NCBI RefSeq assembly: GCF_900115825.1
Contig: NZ_FOXW01000004.1
Span: 186,001 to 250,000, forward strand
From: Desemzia incerta
GTDB lineage: Bacteria > Bacillota > Bacilli > Lactobacillales > Carnobacteriaceae
Length of the DNA stretch: 64,000 nt
Direction of reading: 5' to 3'
In this document: positions 11,635 through 19,625 of the stretch, piece after piece
Layout: each line of letters begins with the position of its first letter
How positions within the stretch are numbered: the first letter of the stretch is position 1
The notes under the pieces: generated by a model
Told to the model about the DNA's origin: nothing
Databases searched by the model: none
What the model saw: the letters and a program-made list of their open reading frames with translations, nothing else
Translations under genes and position numbers: made by a program

Positions 11635-12993
11635 TTAAATCATGGAAGTTGGATTTAACCACTGCTTCAATTCTTCTTTAGACGCATATTCTAGAGACAA
11701 TGCGGCTTCTTCTAATGTCGTATTTTCTTTTAAAGCTTTATGAGCGATCTCGGCCGCTTTTTCATACCCGATGTGAGGTGTCAAAGCTGTAACGAGCATC
11801 AACGAACGATGAACCAATTCATCCATACGATCGGTATTTACGGTCAATCCTGCCAGACATTTTTCTCTGAATGAGCGCATCCCGTCCGTTAACAAACCGA
11901 CCGTTTGCAAGAAATTATGAATAATAACAGGTTTATAGACGTTCAATTCGAAGTTTCCTTGACTGGCAGCCACTTGAATCGTGGTATCGTTCCCCATAAC
12001 CTGAGCGGCGATCATCGTCAGAGCTTCCGCTTGAGTAGGATTAACTTTTCCCGGCATGATGGAACTTCCCGGTTCATTAACCGGCAGAGACAGCTCTCCT
12101 AATCCGCTGCGGGGTCCACTCGCCAGCCAACGGATGTCATTAGCTATTTTCATCAAATCACTAGCTAATGCTCGTAAAGAACCATGAACAAATGACAATG
12201 GCTGATGACTAGTCAAAGCAAAGAACTTGTTCTCATCACTGACAAATGGTATCCCTAAAGCTTTCTCCAGCTCTCGAGACACTTTGACACCGAAATCACT
12301 GGATGCGTTTACTCCAGTCCCGACAGCCGTCCCTCCAATAGCCAACTTCAATAAAGTACTGCTGCTCATTTCTATGGCTTTTAAACTGTTTTCGATCATG
12401 CTTCTCCATCCGCTCAGTTCTTGAGCAAATGTAAGAGGTGTGGCATCTTGCAAATGGGTTCTGCCTATCTTGATGACTCCTTCATATCGTTCCATCAATG
12501 CTGAAATGACTTCCAGCCACAGTTTCATTTCCGTTATCAGCTGATCTTGAATTTCTTTATAAGCTGCAATATGCATAGCCGTTGGAAATACATCGTTCGA
12601 GCTTTGTGACAGGTTCACATCATCATTAGGATGCACAGGAGTCGTTTTAGAAGCCAAATGAGCCAGTACCTCATTCACATTCATATTGGTTTGCGTCCCG
12701 CTTCCGGTTTGCCATAAGCACAATGGAAATTGCGATTCATACTCGTTCAAATTATCCAATACCAGCGCACAAGCTTCTTGGATGGTGGTCCCTTTATCTG
12801 AAGAAAGCTTACCCTCTTCTTCATTTACAATAGCACAGGCTTTCTTCACTTGAACCAAGGCTTCAATCAACTTTAATGACATTTTTTCTGTTCCAATTTG
12901 AAAATTTTCTATACTCCGTTGGGTTTGAGCACCCCATAAAGCATCTTGGGGAACGGCAATTTCTCCAAGAGAGTCCTTTTCGATTCTATCCAC
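11635..12993 (-). CDS. fumC: class II fumarate hydratase
   Basis: Interconverts fumarate and L-malate in the cytoplasm. The 452-residue length fits FumC. Visible: [12 protein letters not shown] near the start, GSGTQTNMN (about 96-104), [23 protein letters not shown] with the catalytic His, and the superfamily signature [11 protein letters not shown] (about 310-320). It lies 11 nt after the malic enzyme gene in one operon. Together they would convert fumarate to malate and then to pyruvate and CO2, or run partly in reverse. No other TCA gene is seen nearby, typical for a lactic acid bacterium with a broken cycle. The stop at 11635 is followed by the RpiR remnant. Confidence 0.95.
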
Positions 12994-13004
12994 TCTTATT
13001 CCTC

Positions 13005-14180
13005 CTAGATAGTCGCTACCCCGGTGTTTCGAGCAGCTTGAGCGACATACTCAGCCACTTGTTCCGCAACTTTTTTATTTAAAGCATCCGGTATAATATA
13101 GTCTTCCGATAATTCTTCTTCAGGAATCATGTCTGCGATTGCTTTTGCTGCAGCGACTTTCATTTCATTATTGATCGTCGTTGCACGTACTGCCAGTGCC
13201 CCTTTGAAAATACCTGGGAAAGCCAGTACATTGTTGATTTGGTTTGGAAAATCTGAGCGGCCTGTCCCCATAATGCGTGCGCCGGCTGCTTTAGCCTCAT
13301 CATACATGATCTCAGGTATTGGGTTGGCCATCGCAAATACGATCGCATCATTTGCCATAGATTGAATCATTTCACGCGTAACGATTCCTCCGACAGAAAC
13401 TCCGATAAAAACATCTGCACCCTTCATAGCGTCGCTCAAGTCTCCGTTTGCTTGTTGAGGATTAGAGCGCTGCGCCAATCGTTTTTTATGCTCATCCATT
13501 GGTTCTGGTCTATTTCCAGCCAAGATACCATATTCGTCGCAGATGACAGCTTCTTTTATCCCCATATCCATCAGCATCGTTATGATAGCTGTACCAGCTG
13601 CTCCAGGTCCATTCAAAACTACTTTTATCTCGCTTAACTCTTTCTTGATCAAACGCAAACTGTTCATGATCCCAGCAACCACTACGATAGCTGTTCCATG
13701 CTGGTCATCGTGAAAAACAGGAATCGGCAACAAGTCATCTAGTTGTTTTTCGATTTCAAAACACCTTGGCGAAGAAATATCTTCTAAGTTTATCCCGCCA
13801 AATGTTGGAGCTAAAAAACGTACCGTTTGAATGATTTCCTCAGAAATTTTTGTATCTAAGCAAATCGGAACGGCATCTACTCCAGCGAATTCTTTAAACA
13901 AGATCGCTTTTCCTTCCATTACCGGCATTGCAGCTTCTGGTCCGATATCTCCTAATCCAAGGACAGCTGTTCCATCTGTTACGACCGCCACAAGATTCCC
14001 TTTTGACGTATAAGTATACGCTTCTCTCAAGTCTTCATGGATTTTTCTGCATGGTTCTGCGACACCTGGTGTGTAAGCCAGAGCTAGATCCTCTCTTGTA
14101 TTGATCGAAACTTTGCTTTCAATAGATATTTTCCCTTTGTTTTCTTTATGCAGAGCTAAACTTTTTTCATTCGTATCCAT
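13005..14180 (-). CDS. NAD(P)-dependent malic enzyme
   Basis: Oxidatively decarboxylates malate to pyruvate (EC 1.1.1.38 type). The 391-residue protein is the short bacterial form. Blocks: [12 protein letters not shown] (34-45), [25 protein letters not shown] (split across about 69-93), ICLDTK, the metal/substrate site [23 protein letters not shown], and the Rossmann motif NGPGAAG. Lysine in EGKA and the DDQHGT acid cluster are intact. First gene of the fumC operon, with a promoter/operator at 14223-14262. Cofactor preference cannot be told from sequence alone. Start ATG after AAAGGTGAG. Confidence 0.93.
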
Positions 14181-15475: not shown

Positions 15476-15634
15476 AAGTAACCCTCCCAGTAAAAAACGA
15501 TATAGCTAATGATAGATTTTTTTAATTTAAAAGTAAATGGGGCGCTATGGGTTTTGCCTTAAAAGGTATCGATGAAGCTGCTGACATTGAAGTTTTGATT
15601 TAACCAGCCACTGACTTTATTATTGGGCAAAGAA

Positions 15635-15663
15635 AAAAACTTCTCATAACCGAGAAGTTTTTT
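15635..15663 (-). terminator. Rho-independent terminator
   Basis: AAACTTCTC pairs with GAGAAGTTT around a 6-nt loop; on the minus strand it is followed by TTTTTC. It ends the flavinylation operon. Confidence 0.88.
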
Positions 15664-15671
15664 CATTTAGC

Positions 15672-16922
15672 TTAACCTTTGACAGATGCACTCGATACGG
15701 CGTCAACTGTTTCTGTGGTTTCTTCTTTTGTACTCATAGAAGCTCCTGAAGTAGCATCGACGTCTTCTGTTTTATGGTCTTTAGCAGAAGCACCAGAAAC
15801 CGCATCTACATCGCCGACCAACGCTTGTCCAGTTTGTTTCAAATACCAATCGATGATTGGTTTGAAGTCTAAGATAAATTCATTGATTCCAGCAAAATTG
15901 CCTTCTTTATCGTGCATAGCTTGATAATTGTGCACGACATATTTGTCAGGACCATGAGTAGGTACGTTAACGCGAAACGCATCCATAGCGCCAGAACGCA
16001 ACTGCTGGATCACATATCCTACATTTTTATGCACTTTTTCCGGATGACATTTAGCCAATGGGTTTCCTACTTGCCCTGGAACTCGTGCAGCCAGCATCTC
16101 TTCTGCCGGTTTTGTTTGGTTGTAATACAAGAATTGGTTATTGTTATCTGCATAGGTCAATTCCATTGGCATGGATGCTAAGAAATAATTCAATTGGTCG
16201 ACAGTCAATAATCCACGATCCAATTTGACATACGTATTTCCTTCAACTGCGCCAACTTTTTGGGCCGCTTGTTCCAACCAGTCGTCAGCATACATATCGA
16301 CACCTTCAATAGTCGTATCTATTTTTCCAGTTGCGTAAAGATCTTCCGGTTCAAGTTCGATTTTTTTAGGTCCTTCTATGACTGCCACCACTTTGATAAA
16401 TTGAATGAATTTTTCTAAACAGCTGCCTAAAAATTGAACGGTTCCTGGATCTTTCAAGTTCGCATTTTCATCAAACGCTTCTTTTACTTTGCCTAATAAG
16501 AACTCATTTCCCGGTAATACCATAGCATTGACCCCTGGAGCATCCAAAATCTGACGTAAATGCAACTGCGCACGAGAAGATCCTTGATCGTAATAAGAAG
16601 CCCCCACGATCATGACAGGTTTATTTTCTAAAGGATGAATCTTAAATGACAACCACTCCAAAACACTTTTCAATGCAGCTGGAATTGTCCGGTTGTGTTC
16701 AGGTGTAGCTATGATGACGCCATCCGCGTTTAGAATCTGTCTGTTTATTTTTTGGATGACCGGGCTGTTTGTCTGGTCGTCGCTTTGATTGAACATAGGA
16801 ACATCTTTGATTTCAATGATCTCCAAATCGAATAATGGACTGAATTGTTTTTGGATAAATTTTAGCAATGTACGATTATAAGATACTTCTGCGTTGGAAC
16901 CTACAATACCGACTAATTTCAT
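15672..16922 (-). CDS. NAD(P)H-dependent FMN reductase fused to a PAS domain and a C-terminal flavinylation tail
   Basis: A 416-residue cytoplasmic redox protein with three parts. Residues 1-185 are an NADPH-dependent FMN reductase fold ([13 protein letters not shown] phosphate loop, [37 protein letters not shown]). Residues about 245-365 resemble the DUF438-associated PAS domain ([43 protein letters not shown]). The tail from 371 holds three spaced copies of the motif that ApbE uses to attach FMN: DAVSGAS (373-379), DATSGAS (389-395) and DAVSSAS (407-413, with the Gly changed to Ser). No signal peptide or membrane segment. It follows a stand-alone FMN reductase by 15 nt and apbE further upstream, so covalent FMN on the tail is a reasonable inference. 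Start ATG after AAAGGGG. Confidence 0.85.
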
Positions 16923-16937
16923 TTTTATTAACCCCTT

Positions 16938-17546
16938 TTAGATAGTTTCCCAAGAAAAGTTTTCCGCTTCTTTTTTGTTTTGTTCATGTGCATGAGTCAA
17001 TTGATTAGTGATGGTCACAAAAGTTAAGAAATCTTCAAACAGTCTGTCTAATTTTTCAGTTTGTTCCACATTCGTTAAGTTGTTTTCTTCATCAAAAGCT
17101 TGTAATGAATGACTTAATAAAAACTCAGAACTCGGCATGATACGTGCTTTCAACTCTGGAGCATCAAGGATTTGACGCAAGTGAAGTTGAGCCCTTGAAG
17201 ATCCTAAAGTCCCGTAAGAGGCTCCTGTAATCATTACGGGCTTATCAACAAAAGGGAAGATACCATAAGAAAGCCAACTCAATGCATTCATTAATGAAGC
17301 TGTAACGGCATGATCATATTCTGGCGTACTGATAATGACGCCATCTGCATCATCGATCTTATCTGCCATCGCTTGTACGATTTCAGGAATATCTTTATTT
17401 TCGGGCTTATTGAATACGGGTATATCTTTGATTTCTACAATCTCGATTTCTGCTTTTGAAGAAAAATGATTTTTCATGAATTGCAACAGCTGACGGTTTG
17501 TAGAGTGATCTGAATTGGTTCCTACGATTCCAATAAATTTTTTCAT
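16938..17546 (-). CDS. NAD(P)H-dependent FMN reductase
   Basis: A 202-residue flavodoxin-like reductase that transfers electrons from NAD(P)H to FMN or to a flavoprotein. It is closely similar to the N-terminal domain of the next gene ([59 protein letters not shown]), so the two arose by duplication. The start is the ATG at 17546 with AAAGGAAG upstream; the in-frame TTG at 17564 overlaps that site and is unlikely. Between apbE (33 nt upstream) and the fused reductase (15 nt downstream). It has no PAS domain or flavinylation motif, so it may supply electrons to the flavinylated partner. Confidence 0.88.
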   Translation of the reverse strand: MKKFIGIVGTNSDHSTNRQLLQFMKNHFSSKAEIEIVEIKDIPVFNKPENKDIPEIVQAMADKIDDADGVIISTPEYDHAVTASLMNALSWLSYGIFPFVDKPVMITGASYGTLGSSRAQLHLRQILDAPELKARIMPSSEFLLSHSLQAFDEENNLTNVEQTEKLDRLFEDFLTFVTITNQLTHAHEQNKKEAENFSWETI

Positions 17547-17579
17547 TTTTTTACTTCCTTTCAAATCTATTTTTTACTT

Positions 17580-18500
17580 TTAGCTTTTAAATCCTTTTGA
17601 ATACATCAATTTCTCATCTTTCGTAATGACTAAACCTTCGATTCCTTCCAACTGATTCAGCTCATTCACTATTTCATCAGAGGGTTTGCCATATAAACGA
17701 GTCGTCCATATTTCACCGTCTACCGATCGTTCAGACCGAATAGTCAAACTGGCCACATCTGTTTCAATGGGATACCCCGTTTGTGGACTTAAAATATGAT
17801 GATACGTTTGGCCTTTTTTTACCAAACTTCTTTCGTAGATTCCTGAAGTGACGACCGATTGATTGTTGATTTTTACGGTCGTCAAATATTGATTGCGAGA
17901 TGCGCTTGGGTTTTGTATCCCTATATTCCAATACTCTTTTCCAGACTGTTGGAAAGGATTTAACCCTACGATGTTTCCGCCTAAATTGATTAATCCAGAC
18001 GTAACCCCTTCGCTTTTCAAATACTGAATGATCCGGTCTGCTATGTACCCTTTTGCTAAAGCGCCCAAATCAATCCGCATACCTTTTTCGGTCAAATAAA
18101 CCGACCGTTCTTCGTTCTTCAAGATGATATTTTGAGGACTTGTTTTCTTCAATAACCCATCAATGACTTCTTTTGAAGGAACTTTAGCGTCATGAAATCC
18201 GATTCGCCAAGTTTGGACTAAAGGACCAATAGCAATATTCAAATAACTTTCAGGCGCGCAACTGTGCATCTTTCCTATCTGGATCAACTCATACAACTCT
18301 GGATGAACCACAACGCTACGAATGCCGGCACTTTGATTGACCGCCATTAATTCAGAATCAGGGTCATTGGCGCTGAACCGCTTTTCGTATTTCTTTAATC
18401 GAGCGACAGCTTCTTCTAAAATAGGAGTCGGCTGTTCATGCTCAATCCGTACATCAATGACCGTTCCCATCAAATGGACCGTTTTCATTTTCTCCGGCAT
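17580..18500 (-). CDS. apbE: FAD:protein FMN transferase, cytoplasmic
   Basis: Uses FAD to attach FMN covalently through a phosphodiester bond to a Ser or Thr in a target motif of the D-x-x-(S/T)-G-A-(S/T) type. The 306-residue protein has HLMGTVIDV (near 9-17), YEKRFSAND, IGPLVQTWRIG, the FAD/metal core DLGALAKGYIADR (about 144-156), LINLGGN, SVVTSGIYER and HHILSPQTGYP. Most ApbE proteins are exported; this one has no signal peptide or lipobox, so it should act in the cytoplasm, where its neighbour with three such motifs would also be. Starts 2 nt after the regulator gene stops, preceded by AAAGGAG. A second start at the fifth codon is possible. Confidence 0.93.
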   Translation of the reverse strand: MPEKMKTVHLMGTVIDVRIEHEQPTPILEEAVARLKKYEKRFSANDPDSELMAVNQSAGIRSVVVHPELYELIQIGKMHSCAPESYLNIAIGPLVQTWRIGFHDAKVPSKEVIDGLLKKTSPQNIILKNEERSVYLTEKGMRIDLGALAKGYIADRIIQYLKSEGVTSGLINLGGNIVGLNPFQQSGKEYWNIGIQNPSASRNQYLTTVKINNQSVVTSGIYERSLVKKGQTYHHILSPQTGYPIETDVASLTIRSERSVDGEIWTTRLYGKPSDEIVNELNQLEGIEGLVITKDEKLMYSKGFKS

Positions 18501-18502
18501 CT

Positions 18503-19378
18503 TTAATCCGCTCCTTTAGTCGACAATACTTTTTGTTCCAAATCCGCTAATTCTTTTAAGGCAATCGCATTTTTATTGATTTTGGAGTAGGCTCTGGCAT
18601 CGTAGATCAATTCTAAGATGACTGCTGCAGGCTTATTTTGAACGATAGCATTTTTCGCTAATTGAGTAGCTGCTCTTGCCAAGTAGTACGTCACGTGATT
18701 GTCTGAGCAAATAGAAACAGCATAAGTCAATAAAGCATTACTGATCTCTAATTCTTGTATTCCTGAATAGAAAACACCGCACTGGAATACGATATTCAAT
18801 ACTCTCCAAGTATCTTCAATTTCTGTTGTTGGATAAGTATAGATTTTCTCCAGTACTTTATTGAAGTAAAACTCTGCTTTCTCTTGGTCTTTCTCGCGAG
18901 AATACACCATTCCGCTTCCTGTATACGCCAGCAAATGAAAAATGTTCTCTTCATTAGGTTCGTCAGCGAGCAAAATCTGGTCAAATAAGAAAAGAATCTC
19001 TGTCACAGGACGACCTTGAAAAATCATCACAAAACCTTTCAAGTAATAGTACTGCATACCCAAACCTGGCTCTTTGATGTCATCGTTAGAAATAGTGTCC
19101 AACAACGCCTTAGCTTGTTCATACTCGCTAGTGATCAAAAAGAATTCTGCTTGGTTCATTTTTTCGATGGTTTCTGTATGCTTAACACCTACTCTTGGGA
19201 ATAATTCGCCTAAAGGCAAGTTAAGACGATTACACAATTGGATCAAAATCTTCAAATTCGGGACTTTGCCATTGTTTTCAAAACGACTCAATGTAGCTTG
19301 AGTACATATCCCCTCTGCCAATTCCATCTGAGAAAGCCCCAAAGCTTTACGCGCTTCAACAAATCGTTTTGTATTCAA
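18503..19378 (-). CDS. XRE-family regulator with TPR-like C-terminal domain (Rgg/PlcR-like)
   Basis: A 291-residue DNA-binding protein. Residues 6-60 form an XRE helix-turn-helix (RKALGLSQMELAEGICTQATLSRFENN, split here around the turn). The remainder is helical with repeated patterns like tetratricopeptide repeats (for example YEQAKALLDTI, EKAEFYFNKVLEKI), as in the RNPP group whose members often bind short peptides. No pheromone gene is seen beside it. It is the first gene of the flavinylation operon and only 2 nt from apbE, so it is presumably co-transcribed and may regulate its own operon. A strong promoter lies at 19445-19473. Confidence 0.82.
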   Translation of the reverse strand: MNTKRFVEARKALGLSQMELAEGICTQATLSRFENNGKVPNLKILIQLCNRLNLPLGELFPRVGVKHTETIEKMNQAEFFLITSEYEQAKALLDTISNDDIKEPGLGMQYYYLKGFVMIFQGRPVTEILFLFDQILLADEPNEENIFHLLAYTGSGMVYSREKDQEKAEFYFNKVLEKIYTYPTTEIEDTWRVLNIVFQCGVFYSGIQELEISNALLTYAVSICSDNHVTYYLARAATQLAKNAIVQNKPAAVILELIYDARAYSKINKNAIALKELADLEQKVLSTKGAD

Positions 19379-19412
19379 GATTTATCCCTCCAAACAAGCA
19401 TGATCATTTTAT

Positions 19413-19428
19413 TGTGATTTTATTCACA
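19413..19428 (-). promoter_or_regulatory. CRP/FNR-type palindrome
   Basis: TGTGA-N6-TCACA, the consensus half-sites and spacing of CRP/FNR-family sites. It lies about 10-25 nt downstream of the predicted start of transcription (near 19438), a position that fits repression. It links the flavinylation operon to redox, oxygen or carbon control; which regulator binds is unknown. Confidence 0.55.
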
Positions 19429-19444
19429 TTTATAATTCACCCAA

Positions 19445-19473
19445 ATTATACCCCCAAAGAATTTTTACGTCAA
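19445..19473 (-). promoter_or_regulatory. sigma-A promoter of the flavinylation operon
   Basis: TTGACG (19473-19468), a 17-bp spacer and a perfect TATAAT (19450-19445) on the minus strand, one mismatch from full consensus. It gives a leader of about 60 nt before the regulator ATG at 19378. Confidence 0.85.
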
Positions 19474-19579: not shown

Positions 19580-19625
19580 AAAAAACTGCTTAATGAGAAT
19601 AAGATTTCTCATTAAGCAGTTTTTA
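19580..19625 (-). terminator. bidirectional Rho-independent terminator
   Basis: AAAACTGCTTAATGAGA pairs with TCTCATTAAGCAGTTTT around a 6- to 7-nt loop with T tracts on both strands. It ends the GGDEF gene. Confidence 0.9.

Follow-up and report, generated by a model that had tools for sequence, protein, structure and literature searches.

Which protein does an ApbE flavin transferase modify when it is kept inside the cell, and what use would the attached flavin have there? The question is raised by four genes on the minus strand of the window, the 64,000-nucleotide stretch of Desemzia incerta DNA analysed here, which encode a regulator, an ApbE protein without an export signal, a stand-alone FMN reductase and a fusion of an FMN reductase domain, a PAS domain and a motif-bearing tail. 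Cytosolic ApbE systems are under-described, since a large flavinylation survey of 2021 excluded proteins without an export signal (PMC8238504), and examples of cytosolic ApbEs are already on record (PMC12052999). The soluble fumarate reductase of Klebsiella pneumoniae is likewise a cytosolic flavoprotein with a dedicated signal-less ApbE, and in trypanosomatids an intracellular ApbE occurs with its target, as in the window (PMC12052999). The Klebsiella target is, however, a fumarate reductase, whereas the window fusion has no match to FMN_bind (PF04205) or FAD_binding_2 up to E = 1, and the trypanosomatid system differs in that ApbE is fused to its target enzyme, again a fumarate reductase (PMC12052999).

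The operon and its ApbE

In order along the minus strand, the operon comprises an HTH_3 and TPR-like (RNPP-like) regulator (positions 18503–19378; 291 aa, TTG start), apbE, encoding an FAD:protein FMN transferase (17580–18500; 306 aa, PF02424), the partner FMN reductase (16938–17546; 202 aa, PF03358, ATG start) and the fusion (15672–16922; 416 aa). This layout, proposed in a sequence-only reading of the same DNA, is borne out, with gaps of 2, 33 and 15 nt that are exact given the partner ATG at 17546 (the TTG-initiated open reading frame listed for this gene starts at 17564). A purine-rich stretch precedes the start of all four genes. Upstream lies a promoter-like TTGACG-17-TATAAT sequence (11/12; 19445–19473, minus strand), one of a class with 11 members in the operon region, a number not above that in shuffled sequence (13.6). 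Terminator-like hairpins are found directly past the last gene (15634–15663; palindromic and listed by the scan on the plus strand only) and behind the upstream GGDEF gene (19581–19624, minus strand), the latter providing the upstream boundary of the operon. Pfam matches were obtained for the partner reductase (FMN_red, 116 bits) and the regulator (HTH_3, 43.6 bits, above the cut-off), with TPR matches of the regulator under their cut-offs.

The window ApbE scores 254.8 bits against a curated PF02424 cut-off of 25.6 and has 7esa as its best PDB relative. Its N terminus, MPEKMKTVHLMGT, contains no leader by simple hydropathy and lipobox inspection, in agreement with the earlier prediction that the enzyme is not exported and unlike the second ApbE of the host, a lipoprotein encoded on another contig (C17), which has one. 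The HHI-x-x-P-x-TG stretch, the histidine of which is catalytic, is present as HHILSPQTG, its S standing where the majority of relatives that match the pattern carry D or N. Among ApbE rows, with near-duplicates counted, the pattern had no match in 32 of the 103 closer ones and in 32 of the 44 that are more distant. In a tree of 80 hand-selected rows, the cassette ApbEs fall into two groups (100/99 each) together with unlinked ApbEs of fusion-bearing genomes, and 13 lipoprotein ApbEs form a separate group (100/98); of the cassette clades, it is the main one that contains the window enzyme.

The tail of the fusion as a probable ApbE substrate

The fusion begins with an FMN_red domain (residues 1–146; 16485–16922, minus strand; Pfam, 124 bits) of intact ChrR/FerB-like fold, closest to ChrR, YieF and FerB. 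The solved chains of ChrR/YieF, FerB and YhdA share the fold of this domain and the Pfam family of the partner reductase; they hold their flavin non-covalently and, at about 170–200 aa, have neither a PAS domain nor a tail. A PAS_10 domain (residues 244–353; 15864–16193, minus strand; 91 bits) follows, which resembles the C-terminal domain of SMU_1151c (2qkp). Structures 2qkp and 3cax are presumably of DUF438/hemerythrin-PAS_10 proteins, which have the PAS_10 family in common with the fusion and carry a hemerythrin domain instead, with no FMN_red match in the two that were scanned (L031 and L170). No output domain was found in the fusion by Pfam. The chain ends in a tail predicted to be disordered (residues 372–416; 15675–15809, minus strand; pLDDT < 50), to which the structure model, drawing on 41 of 81 sequences, assigns no position. 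It bears three motifs on the same strand: DAVSGAS (residues 373–379; 15786–15806), DATSGAS (389–395; 15738–15758) and DAVSSAS (407–413; 15684–15704). In the 41-row alignment, Ala394 of the second motif is invariant and Asp389 nearly so.

The operon is widespread in lactic-acid and related bacteria. Among the matches listed from 395 sampled Lactobacillales genomes (host included), at least 150 are near full length, and the tails of the window fusion and of 80 loci (81 in all) were searched for D-x-x-[ST]-[GS]-[AS]-[ST]. Every tail contains at least one motif, with 202 copies in total against a mean of 1.93 and a maximum of 8 in 1,000 shuffles; outside the tails, the bodies of the 81 fusions contain none. 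The canonical form with G at motif position 5 is present in 61 tails and absent in 20. Motifs are conserved although the spacers between them vary. Their number ranges from one (7 of 81 tails) to two to four (74 of 81), so multiple flavins are not essential everywhere. In a second sample, for which 20 of the more divergent members were hand-picked from the same matches, 18 have the pattern and the remaining two have A at motif position 4.

The window fusion is an FMN_red protein with a C-terminal extension bearing a flavinylation motif, and such proteins from two Lactococcus species are covalently flavinylated by their cognate ApbE, as reported by Huang et al. (mSystems, 2024) from work in E. 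coli in which modification depended on the motif Ser/Thr (PMC11334425). The sequence-only reading knew of no characterized system with this architecture; the class of substrate, at least, is characterized in that paper (PMC11334425). The Lactococcus proteins and the window have in common PF03358, a C-terminal extension with motifs, a cognate apbE and a predominantly Firmicutes distribution; the paper speaks of one to two motifs, 'PAS' as a whole word is absent from its main text, and a partner reductase, a regulator, Rex-type control and plasmids go unmentioned in its passages on these proteins (PMC11334425). A homologue on a Lactococcus lactis plasmid combines FMN_red, PAS_10 and two DATSGAS motifs, and the protein studied by Huang et al. 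is for this reason probably an orthologue of the fusion.

The soluble FMN_red/PAS fusion had been proposed as the ApbE substrate, and this view gains strength from the conserved tail, from an apbE that is linked or elsewhere in the genome, and from the distribution of FMN_bind proteins. The latter were sought in 50 of the 80 genomes, and 16 have no match, leaving the fusion tail as the only recognized ApbE target there, as far as their sequences indicate. All 16 encode ApbE, exactly one copy in 8 and more than one in the other 8; in these latter genomes, ApbE may have targets that are neither PF04205 proteins nor the tail. We consider it very improbable that ApbE modifies some other protein and that the tail motifs stay bare. 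The further targets hinted at by multiple ApbEs, the FMN_bind proteins available to an ApbE in 34 of 50 genomes and the only leaderless ApbE of E. aquimarinus, which sits with an FMN_bind fusion, would suit that explanation; it is opposed by the 16 genomes with ApbE and fusion and no FMN_bind match (a single ApbE in 8), by the retention of motifs while spacers differ, by the carriage of the apbE–reductase–fusion triad on plasmids and by the published flavinylation of FMN_red tails (PMC11334425). The tail thus very probably carries covalent FMN from ApbE.

Gene neighbourhood and a Rex-type operator

Of 80 loci, 79 have the partner reductase next to the fusion and 60 have an adjacent apbE. For the 20 loci without an adjacent apbE, 17 genomes were searched, all of which have an ApbE, each a leaderless copy; with the 16 genomes above, ApbE was found in all 33 genomes searched besides the host. 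In the second sample, apbE lies within the 5.4 to 6.5 kb stretch examined in 11 of 20 loci. Homologues commonly without the tail and apbE, which would have spoken against the substrate assignment, were not found (tails in 81/81 and 18/20; ApbE in 17/17 and 16/16). The sequence-only reading had also asked whether the fusion always lies with both a signal-less apbE and the RNPP-like regulator. The apbE gene is adjacent or, in the 17 genomes searched, present elsewhere as a leaderless copy; the regulator is rejected as a constant operon part, with a homologue upstream in only 36 of 80 loci and none found in the examined flanks of more than half, including those of Streptococcus, Lactiplantibacillus and most Oceanobacillus.

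Clustering of open reading frames across the 80 loci revealed no constant acceptor gene. The neighbourhood does not indicate the acceptor: apart from the operon genes themselves, the most frequent family is found in 13 loci. ABC ATPases (13 loci) were dropped as candidates, being found at varying distances and beside different transporters in the loci inspected; DUF454 comes next (11 loci), and the families after it are for the most part restricted to a single genus. Two families, annotated by inspection as MsrA-like and lipoate-ligase-like, occur in 6 loci each. E. aquimarinus has a paralogous set of apbE, a partner reductase and an FMN_red-FMN_bind-FAD_binding_2 protein with a fumarate-reductase-like head, a closer parallel to the Klebsiella enzyme than the window fusion.

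Directly downstream of the −10-like element is a putative Rex-type palindromic operator, ATGTGAATAAAATCACAA (19412–19429, minus strand), close to TTGTGAAN4TTCACAA and with two of 14 positions differing from TTGTGAANNNNTTCACAA. Sites with at most two mismatches precede 23 of 77 cassettes compared with 1 of 397 controls, and the best of 150 permuted half-sites reached 4. The 77 upstream regions are those of the window and 76 loci (L027, L029, L048 and L071 were left out because too little sequence lay upstream; L025, in which an overlapping open reading frame broke the gene chain, was kept as a miss), and the controls, which are not a curated gene set, are the upstream regions of open reading frames of at least 200 codons from these loci. 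Four or more mismatches were found in 24 of 76 first-gene upstream regions, that of S. agalactiae among them; the main text of a paper on Rex in this species mentions neither apbE nor FMN (PMC8376106).

In the host genome, comparable sites stand before ldh, before adhE (two sites) and before the operon of the second ApbE. This genome encodes rex (C12:42993; NF003989, 362 bits, above the cut-off) and four CRP/FNR-family HTH matches above the cut-off; a member of the latter family might also recognize this palindrome. Genome-wide in the host, the pattern at no more than one mismatch is not commoner than a reversed control (17/14 versus 27/30), two perfect matches were found against 2.1 expected from base frequencies, and most of the 19 places inspected out of 29 are not before an evident Rex target, such that only the placement of the sites supports the pattern in this genome. 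Outside the host, one lipoprotein ApbE operon (L130) has a two-mismatch site and the other 14 of the 15 locus flanks have none, a weak negative because flanks often stop short of the gene before apbE; among 25 loci of cytosolic unlinked ApbEs, one site was found (L145). From the predicted operator we infer that expression of the operon may be under Rex control.

Possible roles of the tethered flavins

Taken as a whole, and with about even confidence, we read the system as a cytosolic electron relay that is soluble, works with several flavins and responds to NADH. In it, the ApbE without export signal would use FAD to attach FMN to the Ser/Thr of the repeated D-x-x-(S/T)-(G/S)-A-(S/T) motifs, and NAD(P)H would reduce the non-covalent FMN in both reductase units, the partner and the N-terminal domain of the fusion, which are probably joined in one oligomer. 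The tethered FMNs could act as swinging carriers, collecting electrons from the reductase FMNs and passing them to an acceptor docked on, or presented by, the PAS domain, and a build-up of NADH would release operon expression through the Rex-type operator. The direction of electron flow, the formation of a complex and the role of the PAS domain are those that we infer.

The earlier reading had offered an electron relay or a redox sensor. Because of the Rex-type operator, the regulator missing in many lineages and the paralogues with fumarate-reductase-like heads, we tentatively favour a relay or NADH outlet. As a sensor, the tail flavins would alter the PAS domain according to their redox state, and this domain would pass the signal on to the operon's HTH regulator or some other partner. 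PAS domains often act as sensors, and 36 of 80 loci also encode a regulator of the HTH-TPR kind; such a role is nevertheless unlikely given a fusion without an output domain, the more than half of the loci whose examined flanks yielded no homologue of the regulator, two reductases where sensing would hardly call for both, and a Rex-type site that already ties the operon to NADH.

A different possibility, which we rate well below an even chance, is that the tail only anchors FMN in an FMN_red pocket, either in its own subunit or in an adjacent one, and so keeps the cofactor from being lost, with no relay, in what would equally tentatively be an ordinary quinone-, azo- or chromate-type reductase. 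Huang et al. proposed this anchoring role for the Lactococcus proteins, placing the modified residue close to where the FMN_red dimer binds its flavin (PMC11334425), and the intact FMN_red fold and the 7 tails with a single motif are compatible with it. Two to four motifs in the other 74 tails, and six in one protein, by contrast outnumber a single pocket per FMN_red domain, and the motifs lie far along the chain, behind the PAS domain. In that six-motif protein, a fusion of 713 aa, they recur with each PAS, being placed before, between and after two full PAS_10 domains and part of a third.

The relay may also extend further, although we put this forward as a speculative reading: the PAS domain and its flavinylated disordered linker could form a repeatable electron-carrying unit, an intracellular wire or capacitor that would be Rex-switched jointly with the extracytosolic flavinylation operon. 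Each PAS domain would dock the covalent FMN of a neighbouring linker, and the heteromeric NAD(P)H reductase would load the unit. If true, this would be the first carrier on an unstructured peptide, with NADH control common to inner and outer flavin circuits; we know of no earlier flavinylated carrier built on such a peptide instead of a flavin-binding fold. If the tail flavins carry electrons, the disordered multi-flavin arm would be a design unlike that of FMN_bind carriers and would give fermenting bacteria an additional, so far unnoticed NADH outlet.

The PAS architecture, the duplicated PAS-plus-motif unit in one protein, the paralogues with fumarate-reductase-like heads and the Rex-type operator are, as far as could be found, new; the repetition of motifs in the tail and what appears to be NADH-linked control of the operon also look new. 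A literature search returned no publication joining FMN reductase, PAS domain and ApbE, nor one joining thiamine biosynthesis lipoprotein, NADPH-dependent FMN reductase and Streptococcus. The apbE–reductase–fusion block is also found on plasmids of Enterococcus, Lactococcus and Loigolactobacillus, adjoined by insertion sequences in Enterococcus and Loigolactobacillus; the plasmids that carry it include those of a food Lactococcus and of E. faecium of patient and fodder origin.

Operon layout and the motif-bearing tail

The cassette comprises a regulator (18503..19378), apbE (17580..18500), a partner reductase (16938..17546) and a 416-residue fusion (15672..16922), all encoded on the window's minus strand, with intergenic gaps of 2, 33 and 15 nt, the tight four-gene operon that the sequence-only reading had described. 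A purine-rich stretch precedes the start of every gene, and terminator-like hairpins bound the operon on either side, at 19581-19624, following the GGDEF gene upstream, and at 15634-15663, past the last cassette gene. Positions 19473-19445 read as a promoter-like TTGACG-17-TATAAT, in a region where such matches are no more frequent than in shuffles. Pfam assigns HTH_3 with a weak TPR match to the regulator, ApbE to the second product, FMN_red to the partner reductase, and FMN_red followed by PAS_10 to the fusion. The AlphaFold model of the fusion has two folded parts—the first resembling the reductases ChrR, YieF and FerB (structure match, Z 22-24), the PAS part resembling the C-terminal domain of SMU_1151c (2qkp; structure match, Z 15.5)—and is disordered from residue 372 onward (pLDDT under 50). 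The host probably belongs to the Carnobacteriaceae and is Desemzia-like: among named relatives Desemzia sp. RIT 804 scores best, at 95%, and a genome of the same genus gives 96%. Around 1.5 kb downstream of the cassette, class II fumarase and malic enzyme genes stand side by side (11635-14180), as judged from reading their translations.

The tail, flagged previously for its ApbE-type motifs, is a genuine and conserved feature. The pattern D-x-x-[ST]-[GS]-[AS]-[ST] was counted in 81 tails (80 related loci and the window) and occurs in every one of them, with one copy in 7, two in 38, three in 25 and four in 11, whereas the bodies of the same 81 fusions contain none. The total of 202 copies compares with a mean of 1.93 and a maximum of 8 across 1000 shuffles of each tail. 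Tail length and spacers vary between lineages; the canonical glycine at position 5 is present in 61 of 81 tails, with serine alone at that position in the other 20. Among 20 more divergent Lactobacillales members, picked from the matches listed, 18 conform to the pattern and the other two carry DxxA[SG]AS forms. In one fusion of 713 residues (L209:2790-4931), FMN_red is followed by a motif, a PAS domain, three motifs, a second PAS domain, two motifs and a partial third PAS domain; this repetition of PAS plus motif stretch as a unit suggests that the PAS domain and the putative tail flavins act together.

Linkage and phylogeny of ApbE

Of the 80 loci, 79 have the partner reductase next to the fusion, the remaining one being cut by a contig end, and 60 have apbE adjacent, placed before or after the reductase–fusion pair. 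Among the 20 loci where apbE is not adjacent, the search covered 17 genomes, all 17 of which encode ApbE with at least one leaderless copy. The fusion is very probably the ApbE substrate, as had been guessed from the window. Cassette ApbEs begin a few residues ahead of the MGT motif and, on inspection of hydropathy and lipobox, have no evident leader, in agreement with the earlier proposal that this ApbE carries no export signal; by contrast, the second ApbE of the host is a lipoprotein by the same inspection.

A midpoint-rooted tree of 80 ApbE rows places 13 lipoprotein ApbEs in one group (100/98) and 49 of 50 cassette ApbEs in another (100/99), which also holds four unlinked ApbEs encoded by genomes that have the fusion, together with an Enterococcus aquimarinus ApbE. 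The fiftieth, from a Loigolactobacillus plasmid, groups with six unlinked ApbEs from Lactiplantibacillus and Furfurilactobacillus genomes or relatives (100/99). Outside the sample used for the tree, in the more divergent set, an ApbE whose score to the window ApbE is similarly low is linked to the pair in 3 of 20 loci (L216, L218 and L224).

FMN_bind, the sole other substrate family searched, has no match in 16 of 50 fusion-bearing genomes, and all 16 encode ApbE; by these sequence matches, the tail is the only recognised ApbE target in those genomes. Exactly one ApbE is encoded in eight of them, but the other eight encode more than one, so that targets as yet unrecognised may exist, which counts against the tail as the sole target.

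A Rex-type operator in the cassette promoter region

The promoter region of the cassette contains a palindrome, ATGTGAATAAAATCACAA (19412-19429), that departs from the Rex consensus TTGTGAAN4TTCACAA at two positions (PMC8376106, PMC2883068). The search covered up to 300 nt ahead of the first gene of each cassette, and the controls were 397 regions lying upstream of other ORFs in these loci. Sites with at most two mismatches were present in 23 of 77 cassette regions compared with 1 of 397 controls (the best of 150 permuted half-sites gave 4) and, with three mismatches allowed, in 52 of 76 compared with 18 of 397, counts that are not independent events because the rows are related. An Enterococcus faecium plasmid cassette carries TTGTGAAAACAGTAACAA 71 nt before apbE.

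In the host genome, the derived operator pattern has two perfect matches, with 2.1 expected by chance, and one of these is the cassette site itself, by construction of the pattern. The second, TTGTGAAAACAAACACAA (G000:C17:8357-8374, in loci L179 and L159, 8357-8374 in the latter), was not used to build the pattern and lies just upstream of FMN_bind lipoprotein and ApbE lipoprotein genes; given this position, the two flavinylation operons in the host may be under common control. Sites with one mismatch precede adhE (two sites; the gene is truncated at the end of the locus and hence falls below its cut-off) and ldh, both of which are Rex targets in S. aureus (PMC2883068). Another (G000:C6:34662-34679, locus L170) precedes a gene pair encoding a DUF1858-like protein, by our own assignment, and a DUF438-hemerythrin-PAS_10 protein whose PAS is of the same family as that of the fusion. 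Most other one-mismatch host sites inspected have no evident Rex target behind them. The host has a rex gene; it also encodes CRP/FNR-family proteins (four HTH matches over cut-off), which could alternatively read a similar palindrome.

Paralogous systems, published substrates and plasmid copies

In an E. aquimarinus gene group (L160:5279-10493), a leaderless apbE and a partner reductase accompany an 819-residue FMN_red-FMN_bind-FAD_binding_2 protein that matches the NCBIfam flavocytochrome c model over cut-off and is likely to be a soluble NAD(P)H-dependent fumarate-type reductase. Leaderless apbE genes also lie beside an FMN_bind-FAD_binding_2-FMN_red gene in Lactiplantibacillus (stretch L166:2743-5983) and an FMN_bind-FAD_binding_2 gene in Furfurilactobacillus (stretch L168:4661-7411), gene groups that read as shikimate/quinate type. 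We propose that a similar NAD(P)H input would serve both systems, passing through covalent FMN to a fumarate-reductase-like head in the paralogue, or to PAS and tail in the cassette. It is mainly because the paralogues appear to lead covalent FMN to such a head that we read the cassette as an electron-transfer system, and we infer that the tail is a covalently flavinylated electron carrier.

A 2021 flavinylation survey left out proteins without export signals (PMC8238504), and a 2025 review notes that cytosolic ApbEs exist and that flavin tags can be as short as seven residues and perform best at protein ends (PMC12052999), consistent with a disordered tail as an ApbE substrate. Huang et al. 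2024 (PMC11334425) described, predominantly in Firmicutes, FMN_red proteins that are encoded next to apbE and extended at the C-terminus by a stretch with one to two motifs; one such protein from Lactococcus lactis and one from L. taiwanensis are flavinylated by the cognate ApbE in a Ser/Thr-dependent manner. The word 'PAS' is absent from the main text of that paper. As an L. lactis plasmid homologue of the fusion has PAS_10 and two motifs, these are probably the same family. The previous remark that no characterised system of this architecture was known does not extend to the substrate class; it stands for the PAS architecture, for which a literature search joining FMN reductase, PAS domain and ApbE found no paper. 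As far as our searches go, the PAS architecture, its recurrence within one protein, the paralogues and the apparent NADH-linked control are new.

On three E. faecium plasmids, the regulator-apbE-reductase-fusion cassette lies between IS1216/IS6 copies or beside one (L084:5229-12028, L117:4740-9584, L118:2930-8584). The three genes from apbE to the fusion are flanked by IS6 and ISL3 transposase genes on the Loigolactobacillus plasmid, and occur on an L. lactis plasmid with neither the regulator nor an adjacent insertion sequence. By these arrangements, the cassette behaves as a module on plasmids. In a Streptococcus agalactiae temperature study, the genes SaSA53_0930-0932, for ApbE and two FMN reductases, shift together (-2.09, -2.11 and -2.12) and their products are given as cytoplasmic (PMC6224512); these are probably this cassette, to judge from the S. 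agalactiae locus L075, where apbE, reductase and fusion genes are consecutive.

Of the 80 loci, 11 carry a gene for a DUF454 (YbaN-like) membrane protein, a possible membrane partner, near the cassette (L031, for which alone Pfam was checked, L033, L034, L035, L038, L040, L045, L049, L077, L079 and L083), upstream on the same strand in four, directly downstream in four and upstream on the opposite strand in three. A gene family that we read as MsrA-like also has members near the cassette, in 6 of the 80 loci and across three lineages (L012, L050, L052, L053, L056 and L079).
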